From: Guptibacillus hwajinpoensis
Lineage (GTDB): Bacteria; Bacillota; Bacilli; Bacillales; Guptibacillaceae
DNA length: 64,000 bases
Assembly (NCBI RefSeq): GCF_020171785.1
Contig: NZ_JAIVAE010000003.1
Coordinates: 496,001-560,000, forward strand
Direction of reading: 5' to 3'
This document shows, one piece after another, positions 5,235 to 59,218 of this stretch. The notes under the pieces were generated by a model. It searched no databases. It worked only from the letters and a program-made list of their open reading frames with translations, and had not been told where the DNA came from. Position 1 is the stretch's first letter, and every line of letters starts with the position of its first letter. A program made the position numbers and the translations under genes.

Positions 5235-5480
5235 ATTAGAATGAACGTATTGGCTTTGAAAGGGAATAGTAGAAATTCTATTATGTGCCAGAGAGAGGGA
5301 TTCATCGGCTGAAAAGTCCCTTCACCTTACTCATTTCGAACCTACCCTCGAGCCAGCTGTAGAAATACAGCCGCTTCCTACGTTATAAGGAACTAGAGGA
5401 TATCAATGTTGATATCAAAAATAAGGTGGTACCACGGATAACGCCCATTCGTCCTTTCATAAGGATGAGTGGGCGTTTTA
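5235..5480 (+). promoter_or_regulatory. T-box riboswitch (proline specifier) controlling proI
   Basis: The leader carries the T-box consensus AAGGTGGTACCACGG at 5423-5437. A strong terminator follows (ACGCCCATTCGTCC and its complement, 5440-5479). Stem I shows an AGTA element near 5268 and an AGAGAG motif near 5290. On the 3' side of the specifier loop the sequence GAA-CCT-A precedes CCCT, which can pair with an upstream AGGG. That makes CCU (5341-5343), a proline codon, the specifier. Uncharged tRNA-Pro would stabilise the antiterminator and switch on proI. Confidence 0.9.
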
Positions 5481-5499
5481 TTTGGAAAGGATGAGGATG

Positions 5500-6330
5500 A
5501 TGACAAGAACGAACATCGGTTTCATTGGTGCCGGATCAATCACAGAAGCAATTGTCGAAGGAATGATTTCTGAAAAGTTTGTTGACTCTAACCAAATTAT
5601 GTTATTAAATCGCTCGAATTCACAGAGACTTGAGGAATTAAAAACAACATACAGCGTTCATGTTACTCAAGATATTCAGAAACTTTTGCAACAAAATAAA
5701 GTGATCATTCTAGCTATGAAGCCAACAGACGCGCCCGATGCTTTAGGCATGATTCAGCCATATATTCATAAAAACCATCTGATTATTTCTGTTTTAGCAG
5801 GCATTACAACTACTTATATCGAAGAAAAGATCCACACACGCACCCCTATTGTTCGTGCAATGCCAAATACATCAGCTACAATAGGCTTATCTGCAACTGC
5901 TATTTCAGGTGGAGCGTACGCGGATAAAAATGACTTGTTGTTTACAAAGCGTCTGTTTCAAACGATTGGAAGCGTCGTGTCCGTTCCGGAAGATAAAATG
6001 AATGCCGTAACAGGGTTATCTGGCAGCGGTCCAGCTTATTTCTATTATATGGTAGAATGTATGGAAAAAGCCGCTATACAAAATGGACTTGACGAGGAAA
6101 CAGCACGTGAACTCATCTTGCAAACCATTCATGGAGCTGCCATGATGCTTCGTCAAACGAAACAACCAGCAGAACTTTTAAGAAAAAAAATTACGAGTCC
6201 AGGAGGAACGACACAAGCTGGAATCGCCACTCTTAAAGAGTATGATTATGAAGAAGCTCTTTTAGCATGTATTACAGATGCAACGAATCGATCTCAACAG
6301 CTAGGTGAGCTTTTCCAAAAACAAAACTAA
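5500..6330 (+). CDS. proI: Pyrroline-5-carboxylate reductase ProI
   Basis: Catalyses the last step of proline synthesis, the NAD(P)H reduction of pyrroline-5-carboxylate. It has an N-terminal Rossmann motif (GFIGAGSITEAI), the AMPN segment near residue 117 and both P5C reductase signatures: LSGSGPAYFYYMVE and TSPGGTTQAGIATL. The frame opens at a TTG (5482) and holds ATGs at 5491, 5497 and 5500. GGAAAGGA at 5484 best fits 5497 or 5500, so 5500 is used (276 residues). Control by a proline T-box agrees with the assignment. It corresponds to yqjO of B. subtilis. Confidence 0.93.
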   Translation: MTRTNIGFIGAGSITEAIVEGMISEKFVDSNQIMLLNRSNSQRLEELKTTYSVHVTQDIQKLLQQNKVIILAMKPTDAPDALGMIQPYIHKNHLIISVLAGITTTYIEEKIHTRTPIVRAMPNTSATIGLSATAISGGAYADKNDLLFTKRLFQTIGSVVSVPEDKMNAVTGLSGSGPAYFYYMVECMEKAAIQNGLDEETARELILQTIHGAAMMLRQTKQPAELLRKKITSPGGTTQAGIATLKEYDYEEALLACITDATNRSQQLGELFQKQN

Positions 6331-10204: not shown

Positions 10205-10440
10205 CTATAAATATTGAACTGCTTTGAAGGAAAACAAGTAGCCACCTTTTCCCTATTGAAGAGAGCCGATGGATGGTGAGAATCGGTATATAAAAGGACG
10301 TGAATTTCATTTCTGGAGCTTCTTTTGTACTTGCAAAAGACGGTGAAGATCGTTACACAATGAAGAGGTGAGTTTTCTCACAACCAGGGTGGTACCGCGA
10401 TAACAATCGTCCCTACGGATAACGTAGGGGCGATTTTTTT
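10205..10440 (+). promoter_or_regulatory. T-box riboswitch controlling the NSS transporter
   Basis: The T-box AGGGTGGTACCGCGA lies at 10386-10400, followed by a terminator (AATCGTCCCTACG and its complement, then seven T) ending at 10440. Stem I shows AAGTA near 10227, AGAGAG near 10260 and a distal loop near 10275. The specifier side reads GAA-T-TTC-A-TTTCT at 10302 onward. TTTCT can pair with an upstream AGGAAA, so UUC (10306-10308) is the likely specifier, phenylalanine. The neighbouring register, UUU, also encodes phenylalanine. Confidence 0.85.
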
Positions 10441-10488: not shown

Positions 10489-11832
10489 ATGAGTCAAAAT
10501 GAACAATGGTCTTCAAGACTTGGTTTTATTCTAGCTGCAGCAGGTTCAGCGATTGGTTTAGGGGCCATATGGAAATTCCCGTACACAGCAGGTCAAAATG
10601 GAGGTGGGGCTTTCTTTCTGATCTTTATTCTATTCACATTGATACTTGGTCTTCCACTTCTACTAGCAGAATTTTCAATTGGACGAACCGCTCAAAGCAA
10701 CGCGGTAGATTCTTATAAAACGATATCGCCAGAGACAAAGTGGTATCGGGTTGGTATTATGGGGATGATCACTTCTTTCATCTTATTATCCTTTTATAGT
10801 GTCATTGGAGGATGGATTATCGCCTATTTGTATAAAGCTGTTACAGGAGAGTTAACAGGCCTCTCCTCCGATGAGTACGCACAAGTATTCGGTACGACAA
10901 TATCAAATTCGTTTATTAGTATTTTCGCGCAATTCATTTTCATTATACTCACTATTCTTGTTGTAGCTAGAGGTGTAGAGAAAGGGATTGAACAGGCAAG
11001 TAAAGTAATGATGCCGGCTTTATTTCTTCTCTTCATTATTTTAGTCATTCGGGCTGTTACGCTAGAAGGTTCAATGGAAGGCATTTTGTTCTTACTTCAG
11101 CCTGACTTCACAAAAGTAACCTCTCAAACAATCTTAGAAGCAATGGGACAATCATTCTTCACATTGAGCGTCGGAGTATCCGTTATGGTGACGTATAGTT
11201 CATACTTACCAAAAACACAAAGTTTACCACGCTCCGCTCTGTCGATTGTGATCATGAACATTTTTATCGTTCTTCTTGCTGGTCTAGCCATCTTCCCAGC
11301 AGTTTTCGCTTTCGACCTTGAAGCTGGAGCAGGTCCCGTTCTCTTGTTTAATGTGCTTCCGACAGTATTTGGTCAGCTGCCATTCGGAATGCTCTTTTTC
11401 ATTGCCTTTTTGGTTCTGTTCTTGTTTGCAGCATTAACTTCTGCTTTTTCAATGCTTGAGATCATTGTATCGGTTATTTCGAAAGGTGACCTTAAGAAAC
11501 GAAAAAAATGGGCATGGATCATCGGGCTTGCCATTTTTGCTGTTGGTATTCCATCAGCTCTCTCATACGGTGTTTTGAGCGATGTCACCTTATTCAATAA
11601 AACGATTTTTGATTTAGCCGATTACGCTGTGAGTAATGTACTTCTACCGATTGGAGCTTTGTTAATATCCATTTTTGTTCCTTTAAAAATGAAGAAATCT
11701 GCCCTATTTGAAGAATTGAAACGTGGAAGTGGGTTAAAGAAAGGCTTGTTCGAAACATGGTATTTTCTTATCCGTTTTGTCGCACCGCTTCTTATTCTTT
11801 TCGTTATGTTAGATGTTCTTGGAATCTGGTAA
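10489..11832 (+). CDS. Sodium-dependent amino-acid transporter (NSS family)
   Basis: A 447-residue transporter of the neurotransmitter:sodium symporter family (LeuT fold), with about 11 spans. Span 1 holds the sodium/substrate motif [17 protein letters not shown] (residues about 14-30), and [10 protein letters not shown] follows. The [20 protein letters not shown] segment matches span 6. It resembles B. subtilis YocR and YhdH. The T-box leader with a phenylalanine specifier suggests uptake of phenylalanine or another aromatic amino acid, but that is an inference from regulation. GAAAGGAGC precedes the ATG. Confidence 0.88.
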
Positions 11833-55048: not shown

Positions 55049-56941
55049 TTATGCCCTCTTTTGTTTTGCTGGAATCATTTTCTTTGCTTTCTCAGCAATA
55101 TCATCTGAAGTTAATCCAATTTCTTTTAATAACTCACTTACACTGCCATGTTCGATATAAGCATCGGGGATTCCCATTCGTTGAATACCACCATGCTGAT
55201 AGCCACTGTCATTAACATATTCTAGAATGGCACTACCAAACCCACCTTGGAGTATAGCTTCTTCAACTGTAAGCATCGGTAACCCTTCTTGCATGAGATC
55301 TGCGATCATTTTCTCATCTAAAGGTTTTATGAAGCGAGCGTTAATCACACGAGCTGAAATACCTTCTTTTTCTAATTTATCCGCAGCACTCAACAGATCT
55401 TGTAACGTAGGGCCAAATGACAAGAGAGCAATATCCGTACCTTCACGAATAACTTCCCAACTACCAATTTGAATTTCTTTTAATTCTTGATCCATCTTTG
55501 TACCAATCCCGTTCCCTCTAGGATAGCGTACAGCAATTGGTCCCTGATTGTACTTCAAACTAGTATAAACCATATGCTGCAATTCATTCTCGTCTTTCGC
55601 CATCATAAGAACCATATTAGGTAAGTGTCTAAGGAATGAGATATCGAAAACACCTTGGTGCGTTTCACCATCTGCTCCTACAAGTCCGGAACGATCAATC
55701 GCTAGGAAAACATTCAAGTTTTGTCGGCAAACGTCATGAACAAGCTGATCATAAGCTCTTTGAAGAAACGTAGAATAAATCGATAAAACCGGTTTTAATT
55801 CCTGAGTTGCAAGTCCTGCAGCCATTGTAGTAGCATGTTGCTCAGCTATACCAACGTCAAAAAGCCTTTCTGGGAATTGTTTTTCAAATGCTTCCCACTT
55901 AGAGCCTACTGTCATTGCTGGTGTGATGACTGAGATGCGATCGTCCTTCTCTGCAAGCTTTCGCACTGTTTCACTAACGACCTTACTATATCCAGGCGCT
56001 GCGACCTTCGGTTTAATTTGTTCACCTGCTTCAATCTTATAAGGACTCACACCGTGCCAAACGCCAATCTGATCGCTTTCTGCGGGTTGATAGCCTTTTC
56101 CTTTTTTCGTAAGTACGTGAATAAGGACCGGTCCTTTTGTCTTCTTAGCATATTTAATGTTTTCCATTAACGCTTCAACGTCATGACCGTCGACTGGTCC
56201 AAGATAGGTAAAACCAAGCTCCTCAAAGAAAATCCCTGAAACCAACAAATATTTCAACGCATCTTTCACGCGCTCAGCGGTTGAAGCTAGCGCTCCGCCA
56301 AACGCAGGAATTTTTTTAAGTAAATACTCAAGTTCATCTTTTGCTTTATGATATTTCCCAGCTGTGCGGAGCTTTCCTAAAATATTATGAAGAGCACCTA
56401 CATTTGGAGCAATAGACATTTCATTGTCATTTAAGATAACGAGCATATCTTTTTGTTCGTGTCCGATATGATTAAGAGCTTCAAGTGCCATCCCACCTGT
56501 AAGAGCCCCATCTCCAATAATCGCAACTACACTTTCGTCAGAGCCTTTCATATCTCGAGCAGCCGCCATCCCCATTGCTGCTGATAATGAGGTAGAGCTG
56601 TGCCCAGTTTCCCAGACGTCATGCTCACTTTCATTTCGTTTTGGAAAACCACAAAGACCTTTATATTTACGTAGCGTATCAAATCTCGAAGCTCGTCCAG
56701 TGAGAATTTTATGGACATAAGCCTGATGGCCAACATCCCAAATAAATTTATCTTTTGGGCTATCATAAATTTTATGAAGCACGATTGTAAGTTCTACTAC
56801 GCCAAGATTAGGCCCAAGATGTCCACCAGTTTCGGATAGTTTATTAATTAAAAAGCTTCTAATCTCTTCAGCAAGCTCGGTCATATCGTTCATATCATAA
56901 TTCTTTAGAAACTTAGGATTCTCAATCTTTTCTAAATCCAT
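55049..56941 (-). CDS. dxs: 1-deoxy-D-xylulose-5-phosphate synthase
   Basis: A 630-residue thiamin-diphosphate enzyme that condenses pyruvate and glyceraldehyde-3-phosphate, the first step of the MEP isoprenoid pathway. The opening [21 protein letters not shown], the thiamin motif [18 protein letters not shown] with [14 protein letters not shown], and the central [16 protein letters not shown] and [14 protein letters not shown] are canonical. It feeds the polyprenyl synthase IspA encoded nearby. It follows oapA by 18 bases. Confidence 0.96.
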
Positions 56942-56959: not shown

Positions 56960-57568
56960 TTATTTCGATTTACGGTTTCCCTTTTTCTTTTTGGATTGTT
57001 TGTCCACCATCTTGATCTTAAATGTTTTTTCTACATAGTATAAAAATCTACCTACTTGAAAGATGATACCTGTAGAAAAGTGGATGGCAAACGTTTTTCC
57101 GAGCGCTTTTCCTCCAACCGTTAACGCAGCAATGACGCTTGTAAATACTACTGATATTATATATTGAAACAAAGATCCATCGCTATGTCCAAGCTGAAGT
57201 GTTAATTGGACGACAACGGTTGCAGAGGCTGTACCGCTTATAATACCCGATATATCACCAATTACATCATTACAGAAGCTTGCTACACGATCTGCGTTAC
57301 GTGTCACAAAGATCGCATGTTTCGCACCAGTAAGACGTTCTGCTGCCATCGCATGAAATGGCACTTCGTTTGCGGCAGTAGAAGCTACCCCAATTGTATC
57401 AAAGAATATCCCAATTAGAACGATCAACAGAACCACAATCATACCAATTGCCCATGAAACTCCACTTAATACCGCTGTTGATATAATTGAAAAAATAGCC
57501 GCTAACACAAGTGTGATAACGGCAATAGCTAAACTCCAGTTTATGGATTTTGATACGGAAGCTTTCAT
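56960..57568 (-). CDS. oapA: OLE-associated membrane protein OapA
   Basis: A 202-residue membrane protein with about four spans (residues about 12-32, 36-58, 108-130, 138-158) and a very basic tail (KKKKGNRKSK). The second span runs into a segment, ANEVPFHAMAAERLTGAKHA then RNADRVASFCNDVIGD, that faintly recalls the CNNM/CorB membrane domain of magnesium exporters. Its place directly behind OLE RNA and before dxs is that of B. halodurans OapA (BH2780), which binds OLE RNA at the membrane. AAGGAG precedes the ATG. The name rests on location, size and basic tail. Confidence 0.87.
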   Translation of the reverse strand: MKASVSKSINWSLAIAVITLVLAAIFSIISTAVLSGVSWAIGMIVVLLIVLIGIFFDTIGVASTAANEVPFHAMAAERLTGAKHAIFVTRNADRVASFCNDVIGDISGIISGTASATVVVQLTLQLGHSDGSLFQYIISVVFTSVIAALTVGGKALGKTFAIHFSTGIIFQVGRFLYYVEKTFKIKMVDKQSKKKKGNRKSK

Positions 57569-57599
57569 ATCTACTCCTTGTCCATTATATAATCACATA

Positions 57600-58294
57600 A
57601 AAATAAGTATCCAACTAACAGGACATCAAGGGGTCAGTTCGTTTCCCCCTGTTCCCTGTCAGTTGAATACCCCTGTTGTATTATGTATCGCAGAGTGGTC
57701 ACTTAAAGAGTAAAGACTGCGGCTTAGGTCCAGTAGGTTTTCCCAGATTGATACCTCAACGTCGCCGTTCAGGCGGTTTCCCTTTACATCAATCTTAGCG
57801 TAGTCACCAGGCGCTAGACTGGATTACCACTTAGTCCGCACTATAATCCCCTTTAAGTGTCACTCGGAACAGTCTAGGAGTTTTCCTCAACAGTTCCACA
57901 CATTTCCTAGCCTCTTTTGCAGAGCAGATTTCATATGGGTGGTAGGAAAAAAGCGGCCGGCCGAGCTGCAAATTTCCAATAATCCATAATCCCCTCTAGC
58001 TCCACTCAAGGCAGGCTACGCTGTTCAACTGCGTTCCCATGCAGCTGCAACAGGTTCATACCCCAATTCATAGCAGGCAGCGTTAACCGCTCTGCTACAA
58101 GAATGGGCCTCCGCGGAAGCAGGGTCAACGCCCACATGCCTTTGTGGATCGCCCTGCGACCTTAACTCCCAGCATCGACCCAAGTCTGGGCGACTCAAGC
58201 CAACACCAGGAACTTCATCGATGTGCCCTATGGCGGATTTTTAGGCCCGCCTTCAGAAATGGCGAACTGACTAGAATACTGCACCACTCAGTCT
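57600..58294 (-). ncRNA. ole: OLE RNA (ornate large extremophilic RNA)
   Basis: About 690 bases without a credible reading frame lie between ispA and oapA, exactly the known OLE site. Transcribed on the minus strand from a strong promoter at 58301-58329, it would end at a 16-bp stem (57607-57622 with 57655-57670) followed by TTATTTTTATG. It contains many local inverted repeats and two copies of AGGGGATTAT. OLE RNA forms a membrane-bound complex with OapA and other proteins and affects resistance to cold, alcohols and magnesium stress in B. halodurans. A covariance search would settle the ends. Confidence 0.85.
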
Positions 58295-58300
58295 TAATTT

Positions 58301-58329
58301 ATTATACCACACATTCATTTTATGCTCAA
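58301..58329 (-). promoter_or_regulatory. Sigma-A promoter of OLE RNA
   Basis: TTGAGC (58324-58329) and TATAAT (58301-58306), 17 bases apart, read on the minus strand. Transcription would start near 58294. The -35 element lies just past the ispA stop at 58337, so OLE can be made apart from the upstream operon. Confidence 0.75.
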
Positions 58330-58336
58330 TTATGTG

Positions 58337-59218
58337 TTAGTGGTCCCGCTCTACAATAAATTTCGCAATAGATTGTAACGTGTCCTTTTCTACGTTAGCA
58401 GCAGTTAGATGGGCTAATCCCTCTTTAAAATGATGATTAAGTTTTTCTTTTGCTCCGTCTAGTGTGAGAAGCTTTGGATAAGTACTTTTTTCGTTCGTTT
58501 CATCACTACCAGGAAGTTTTCCAATCTTTCCTTCTTCTCCTTCAACGTCAAGAATATCATCGCTAATTTGGAAGGAAAGGCCTATATGTTCGCCAAAAGC
58601 ACGTAGATGTTCACGTTGATGACTTGTTGCATGACCAATTATTGCCCCAGCCATAATAGAAAATACAAGAAGTTTTCCTGTTTTATGATGATGAATGTAT
58701 TCAAGTTGTTCTAGCGTTAATTCTTGTTTCTCCCCGTCTAAATCCGCCATTTGTCCTCCTACCATTCCGGAAGGGCCAGCAGCGTGAGATAATAATTTAA
58801 TCAAGTCAACTTTTTGTTCACTTGTTAAATTGGAATCTGCAATAAGTTCAAAGCTTTGGGTTAAAAGCGCATCCCCAGCAAGAATCGCAGTTGCCTCTCC
58901 AAAAACGATATGATTTGTTGGTTTACCTCGACGTAAATCGTCATCATCCATTGCAGGCAAGTCATCATGAATCAATGAGTACGTGTGAATCATCTCAACC
59001 GCACACGCCACCGGAATGGCTTCTTTAATAGAATGACCAAATGCTTCTACGGTAGCGAGCATTAATATTGGACGAATGCGTTTTCCACCTGCGTGAATGG
59101 AATACAACATCGCATCCTTCAATGATTCCGGCATCTCCAAGCGGTCAATGTATGCGGGAAGTTCTTCATCCAACAGTTTCTTACATTCGTTCATATAGGA
59201 ACTGAGATCTGAAGTCAC
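58337..59218 (-). CDS. ispA: Polyprenyl (farnesyl) diphosphate synthase
   Basis: A 293-residue prenyl elongase that builds farnesyl diphosphate from DMAPP/GPP and IPP. The first Asp-rich motif is [18 protein letters not shown] near residue 84, the second is [14 protein letters not shown] near 228, and GGKRIRPIL near 43 binds IPP. It belongs to the YqiD type of B. subtilis. The start overlaps the xseB stop by four bases. OLE RNA begins right after its stop. Confidence 0.93.

Follow-up and report, generated by a model that had tools for sequence, protein, structure and literature searches.

The window, a stretch of 64,000 nucleotides from Guptibacillus hwajinpoensis to which all coordinates refer, carries an OLE RNA on its minus strand at 57679-58303. 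The Rfam covariance model of OLE (RF01071) matches 58303-57679 with 528.9 bits (E = 2.7e-152), far above its gathering score of 50 bits, and the match covers the full model (positions 1-616). An earlier note on this DNA had claimed an OLE RNA here and proposed a minus-strand search with this very model; the claim is borne out. The genes, all named by resemblance, follow each other on the minus strand in the order xseA, xseB, ispA (58337-59218, stop at 58337), OLE, oapA (56960-57568), the gene of the OLE-associated membrane protein, and dxs (55049-56941), which agrees with the ispA-OLE-oapA-dxs position given in the note. The stretch between ispA and oapA is gene-free as described, but its length is 768 bases (57569-58336) and not 690. 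Elsewhere in the window, two T-box leaders lie on the plus strand, one at 5247-5459 (104.9 bits) before a proC-like gene (5482-6330) and one at 10215-10417 (137.5 bits) before a sodium-symporter-like gene (10489-11832), both genes again being named by resemblance.

OLE is found in 103 of the 150 genomes searched, that of G. hwajinpoensis included, and all 103 loci make up the order set. oapA lies behind OLE in all 103 of them, as seen by tblastn with the OapA protein of the window as query, and ispA lies before OLE in 102; in the remaining locus (L004) a contig end cuts the locus. The set from outside the order consists of 109 of 284 OLE-positive genomes, the best-scoring among the matches listed and thus biased to high scores, with L277 left out because its sequence was taken without the 3' side. 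A further 120 named loci serve as illustration and as a source of cases without oapA. Among the OLE loci with no oapA found downstream are L216 and L245, the former leading directly into a dxs-like frame and lacking the hexamer UACAUA described below.

The locus is a genuine OLE copy of an already known kind. OLE of Halalkalibacterium halodurans is described as having its own promoter within an operon and as presumably being processed to an RNA of about 630 nt, the published length being about 600-630 nt (PMC9723947). OLE is also described there as abundant without stress and as bound by several proteins. Processing of its 3' end is stated as known in PMC11332333, which also cites a report of OLE cleavage by RNase P. 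The earlier note saw the promoter and the 3' stem as bearing on whether OLE is made alone or processed from a long transcript. For H. halodurans this question already has an answer, an own promoter, an operon and presumed processing being described together; what the window sequence does supply is a candidate processing site.

Transcription of OLE probably begins at its own promoter, as the note had claimed. A sigma-A-type promoter (58301-58329, minus strand) sits 7 bases past the ispA stop and consists of TTGAGC (58329-58324), a 17-nt spacer ending in TG-G, and TATAAT (58306-58301), the -10 element within which the Rfam match starts. The predicted transcription start is at about 58294-58293. 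In the order, the best pair of -35 and -10 elements scores at least 9 of 12 near the OLE start in 99 of 103 loci, the spacer is 17 nt long in 74, TG precedes the -10 element in 86, and the -35 element starts with TTGAG in at least 69; these counts represent an upper view because only the highest-scoring pair around the start was taken. Within the stretch, promoter-like sites as a group are at least as frequent as expected by chance (12 found, 9.7 expected), so that the support for the OLE promoter is comparative. Taken together, sequence and conservation support an own promoter for OLE. A promoter-like site also lies before oapA (TGGATA-18-TATAAT, 57584-57613, minus strand). However, it is weak, and its TATAAT is missing in two members of the genus (L027 and L029); a second promoter for oapA was therefore rejected.

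The two ends of OLE are joined by a closing helix, in which GAGUGG (58284-58289) pairs with CCACUC (57693-57698) on the minus strand and which covaries in relatives. Each of its six pairs is kept in 94-103 of the 103 order loci and in 88-93 of the 93 scorable loci among the 109 from outside the order. The second pair is exchanged in the order, with AU in 52 loci, GC in 36 and GU in 10. The structure line of RF01071 leaves these columns unpaired. We do not claim the helix as new, the comparison being with this structure line.

Just beyond the closing helix lies the hexamer UACAUA (57682-57687, minus strand), which is unpaired in the predicted fold of 57690-57600 alone. TACATA is the commonest hexamer between OLE and oapA, being present in 84 of 103 order loci by a count whose boundary clipped some motifs and in 91 of 103 after correction; the next non-overlapping hexamer, TATATA, reaches 29. 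With the flank limited to 80 nt, UACAUA is present in 91 of 103 loci and 49 of 54 genera of the order, compared with a mean of 5.3 and a maximum of 11 in 200 shuffles, and it is found in all 14 loci of the genus. Outside the order, the same flank contains it in 40 of the 109 loci, which represent 29 of 76 genera (shuffles: mean 3.6, maximum 9). It is thus absent from 12 order loci and from 69 outside. The positions that flank it are near random, with 0.05-0.45 bits among the order rows, which were selected for the motif. In 360 kb of the own genome, intergenic strands contain 0.39 UACAUA per kb, which corresponds to about 3% for a 72-nt gap. Both the shuffles and this background argue against an AT-rich accident. 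One order locus (L011) has its oapA start misplaced inside the gene, so that its gap is too long in the first hexamer count between OLE and oapA and in the counts inside OLE and before it that are given below.

UACAUA begins 5-19 nt after the start of the 3' strand of the closing helix in 83 of 91 loci, and this distance is mostly 7-13 nt, whereas the distance to oapA varies widely. A role as a -10 element or as part of the oapA start region was rejected on the same grounds. Of 103 order loci, only 2 have the hexamer inside OLE (7.75 expected), and of 102, only 2 have it between ispA and OLE (6.4 expected). If the RNA were cut at U^ACAUA, which in the window lies between 57687 and 57686, the length from promoter to cut would have a median of 609 nt in the order, near the published one. 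UACAUA is most likely an endonucleolytic 3'-maturation site, a reading that draws on its conservation and on the specificity of EndoA.

B. subtilis EndoA, a member of the MazF family, cuts in vivo only at UACAU followed by A (PMC11780869), and a MazF that is 65% identical prefers UACAUA (PMC10893535). EndoA cutting is reported from exonuclease-deficient B. subtilis, where it is gone upon deletion of ndoA, and it is absent in the wild type; the published site list excludes everything up to 150 nt away from rRNA, tRNA and scRNA (PMC11780869). The own genome has a single MazF-family match, which lies in an alr-mazE-mazF-rsbR-like operon, its genes named by resemblance, and shares 108 of 116 residues with the EndoA chain 4mdx, as counted from the alignment. 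An EndoA relative with 83-99% identity is present in all 64 order genomes tested out of the 103, so that a comparison of MazF presence with the hexamer is uninformative within the order. Outside the order, UACAUA is present in 2 of 14 loci without EndoA and in 38 of 95 with it (p = 0.078), or in 1 of 9 and 27 of 67 genera, respectively (p = 0.14), where absence means no match of at least 60% identity and 4 of the 14 genomes are less than 90% complete. Of the 95 outside loci from genomes with an EndoA relative, 57 lack the hexamer, and it is present in two genomes with no EndoA relative detected (G287 and G479, the latter 79% complete). EndoA presence thus predicts the hexamer weakly.

We propose the following mechanism, about evenly poised between right and wrong in our judgement. 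OLE would be transcribed from its own promoter just behind ispA, and transcription would continue towards oapA and dxs. An endonuclease would then cut U^ACAUA in the single-stranded stretch after the closing helix. The cutting enzyme would most likely be EndoA, the MazF-family toxin RNase of the alr-mazE-mazF-rsbR-like operon. Trimming from the 3' side back to the closing helix would follow and leave a product with a predicted length of about 608 nt. The genus also has a strong hairpin, about 9 nt downstream of the hexamer, which would act either as a terminator or, after the cut, as a 5' shield of the oapA-dxs message. OLE is abundant without stress, whereas no EndoA cutting is observed in wild-type B. 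subtilis; either traces of EndoA activity are enough, or the site is recognised by a different enzyme. The origin of the OLE 3' end has so far been worded as "presumably processed" (PMC9723947) or "known to be processed" (PMC11332333). A conserved and exact RNase hexamer at the 3' border turns 3'-end formation into a question that one mutation can test.

The hairpin in question is a stem-loop with an inner hairpin (57605-57672, minus strand), whose fold pairs 57672-57654 with 57623-57605 (19 pairs) and has a free energy of -37.3 kcal/mol and a z-score of -6.25, none of 200 shuffles being equally stable. The "perfect 16-bp stem" of the earlier note (57670-57655 with 57622-57607) is indeed fully paired, although it is perfect only when G-U pairs are allowed, since it consists of 14 Watson-Crick and 2 G-U pairs. 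The T-rich tail that the note described directly after the stem is present as TTATTTTTAT (57597-57606, minus strand). By sequence, however, the stem is confined to one genus. Of the 14 genus loci, 13 give a BLAST match to it at an E-value of 0.05 or better, and the fourteenth (L029) shows the same hairpin by eye; among the remaining 89 order loci, no match has an E-value below 2. The reading of the stem as the mark of the OLE 3' end is accordingly not supported as a general one; the conserved element is UACAUA, upstream of the stem and by the closing helix. The helices of the genus have 8-19 uninterrupted pairs. A dispersed repeat was rejected as an explanation, the own genome containing a single full copy and four other matches with E-values of 0.54 or more. 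Elsewhere in the order, L069 and L086 have long inverted repeats between OLE and oapA; their helices (18 bp and 17 bp, respectively) are unrelated to the stem, and the repeats resemble small mobile elements.

Pairing in the stem is kept within the genus, and the proof by compensation is modest. In an alignment of the genus loci other than L036 (13 of 14), 94.4% of cells are paired and the covariation score exceeds that of all 500 shuffles and all slides, but only two pairs are changed on both sides, a number that 130 of 500 shuffles reach. The T5 run of the tail is invariant in the 13 rows, whereas the TATAAT beyond it is not. A stable hairpin followed immediately by a T-rich stretch, as in a terminator, is present. 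The base of the stem is not G-C-rich in the window (GUAUUC/GGAUAC) and the T tract of TTATTTTTAT is interrupted by an A, which raises doubt over the terminator reading; several congeners have GUUC/GAACAC at the stem base and ACC before the T stretch. A scan with a consensus terminator, with a loop limit of 8, gave no entry for the stem. On balance, the stem is likely a terminator and, judged by its sequence and distribution, is a terminator-like add-on of this lineage at the genus level.

If the stem and its T-rich tail formed the OLE 3' end in this genus by intrinsic termination, UACAUA would be a fossil or of minor importance here. The stability of the fold, the invariance of the T5 run next to a variable TATAAT and the kept pairing would all fit, and some other lineages have terminator-like hairpins at the same place. 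We nevertheless consider this explanation unlikely. The A-U-rich stem base, the broken T tract, the empty consensus scan and the small number of two-sided changes count against it, and so does the retention of UACAUA throughout the genus. A limited scan gave terminator-like hairpins behind OLE for 15 of the 103 order loci and for 31 of the 109 from outside. Of the 15, 9 belong to this genus, in which the scan, limited to 43 nt, covered mainly the inner portion of the stem; in other lineages, several of the hairpins sit within oapA. OLE therefore seems not to need a terminator, 88 of 103 order loci having no match in this limited scan. Hexamer and terminator are anticorrelated outside the order (p = 0.027) and over all loci (p = 0.0057), but we do not rely on this because p is 1.0 within the order and because the scan also counts hairpins inside oapA. 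As a separate observation, seven loci of family f78 (L116, L122, L130, L281, L300, L311 and L315) have a common hairpin, AGGUUGGAGG...CCAACCU, behind OLE, and all nine f78 genomes in the set are without an EndoA-like MazF and without UACAUA.

Alternatively, once the RNA is cut, the hairpin may stabilise the 5' end of the oapA-dxs message, in the manner of the hairpin past the cggR-gapA cut of B. subtilis. Its start about 9 nt after the hexamer is consistent with this, and PMC11780869 describes this kind of function for cggR or gapA, but the invariant T5 run is left unexplained, and we think it improbable that this is the function of the hairpin.

We give comparably little credence to the explanation that UACAUA is cut by another RNase or serves to form the 5' end of the oapA message instead of the 3' end of OLE. 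The failure to see EndoA activity in wild-type B. subtilis (PMC11780869) and the reported RNase P cleavage of OLE cited in PMC11332333 point to another enzyme. However, no RNase outside the MazF family is given UACAUA specificity in the passages of PMC11780869 and PMC10893535 drawn on here. A role for the oapA message would fit the loci L096, L099 and, by eye, L102, in which the hexamer lies beyond a terminator-like hairpin. It would also fit the five named loci in which 1.8 kb or more of sequence contained no detected oapA, four of which have no hexamer; all oapA queries were taken from the order, so that a distant OapA may be missed. In contrast, the fifth locus, L245, retains UACAUA although the 1896 bases downstream yielded no oapA, and the distance to the closing helix is steadier than that to oapA.

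Other stable RNAs of the order were examined as a control for the OLE hexamer. A 3' end was obtained for 47 of 50 tmRNA loci. UACAUA follows the CCA by 0-5 nt in 33 of 36 tmRNAs with an encoded CCA and is found in 1 of 11 CCA-less ones (Fisher p = 5.6e-7, relatedness being ignored). By eye, the CCACCA end often pairs with a downstream UGGUGG, which places UACAUA in the hairpin loop (L370-L399 and L478-L497). In B. subtilis, CCA-less ends are reportedly matured by RNase Z, which would explain the split between the two kinds. Outside the order, the readable tmRNA 3' ends of 30 chosen genomes have no CCA-adjacent UACAUA, with or without EndoA, which argues against a phylum-wide tmRNA rule. Because OLE has the hexamer in 40 of 109 loci there, the use behind tmRNA is an order-level trait and that behind OLE a wider one. 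In the own genome, UACAUA lies within 30 nt of 8 of the 68 tRNA genes scored (8 of the 76 were left out), where the intergenic rate predicts about 0.8. Within 80 nt, it follows 6S RNA in 10 of 29 loci, in six of them directly behind the RNA, and RNase P RNA in 3 of 30; these 80-nt counts left out two tmRNA loci and one 6S locus as too short. Within 120 nt, 14 of 30 RNase P RNA loci have it, mostly past the terminator by eye (L340-L369) and above the intergenic rate. The hexamer is therefore enriched also where a 3'-end role is not evident, and 3'-end formation does not, in our view, account for the RNase P RNA cases.

The least probable explanation is that UACAUA is not cut and serves, within the mature 3' tail, to bind a protein of the OLE complex or an RNA partner. 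In its favour are the nearly fixed spacing from the closing helix across most order loci and the several proteins known to bind OLE (PMC9723947). Against it stand an exact match to a known RNase site, sixth A included (PMC11780869), and the same hexamer behind the tmRNA CCA in the order, an end that must be freed.

The proposed cut at U^ACAUA may thus belong to a broader scheme, in which EndoA would be a housekeeping maturation nuclease of the order, forming by its cuts the 3' ends of OLE, CCA-encoded tmRNA, some tRNAs and some 6S RNAs, and the supply of a stress ribonucleoprotein would be tied to a toxin-antitoxin switch. We put this forward tentatively, with rather more doubt than the mechanism for OLE itself. 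If it were true, a chromosomal toxin RNase would, through the hexamer behind the tmRNA CCA, have a constructive part in maturing RNA. A search of open-licence PMC papers for OLE RNA together with MazF gave one, apparently a phage transcriptome study of S. aureus, and a search for tmRNA together with UACAUA gave two, apparently on toxins. Judged by sequence comparison, the new part of the present analysis is the conserved EndoA-type hexamer at the OLE 3' border, shared with tmRNA in the order.

Compared with published EndoA or MazF-bs sites, the OLE element has the exact hexamer, unpaired in the predicted fold, in a genome whose MazF shares 108 of 116 residues with EndoA. However, those sites were obtained by mapping RNA ends in exonuclease-deficient B. 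subtilis, and we infer a role in the 3' ends of non-coding RNAs here. The tmRNA 3' trailers of the order resemble OLE in having UACAUA at or a few bases behind the CCA end, but their hexamer often lies in a hairpin loop and is confined to the order. The Rfam model of OLE neither draws the closing helix nor retains the hexamer. With OLE of H. halodurans, the window has in common the full covariance match, the ispA-ole-oapA order, an own promoter and a predicted length of about 600 nt; to these, it adds a genus-specific hairpin and the recognition of a shared 3' element, UACAUA, by the closing helix.
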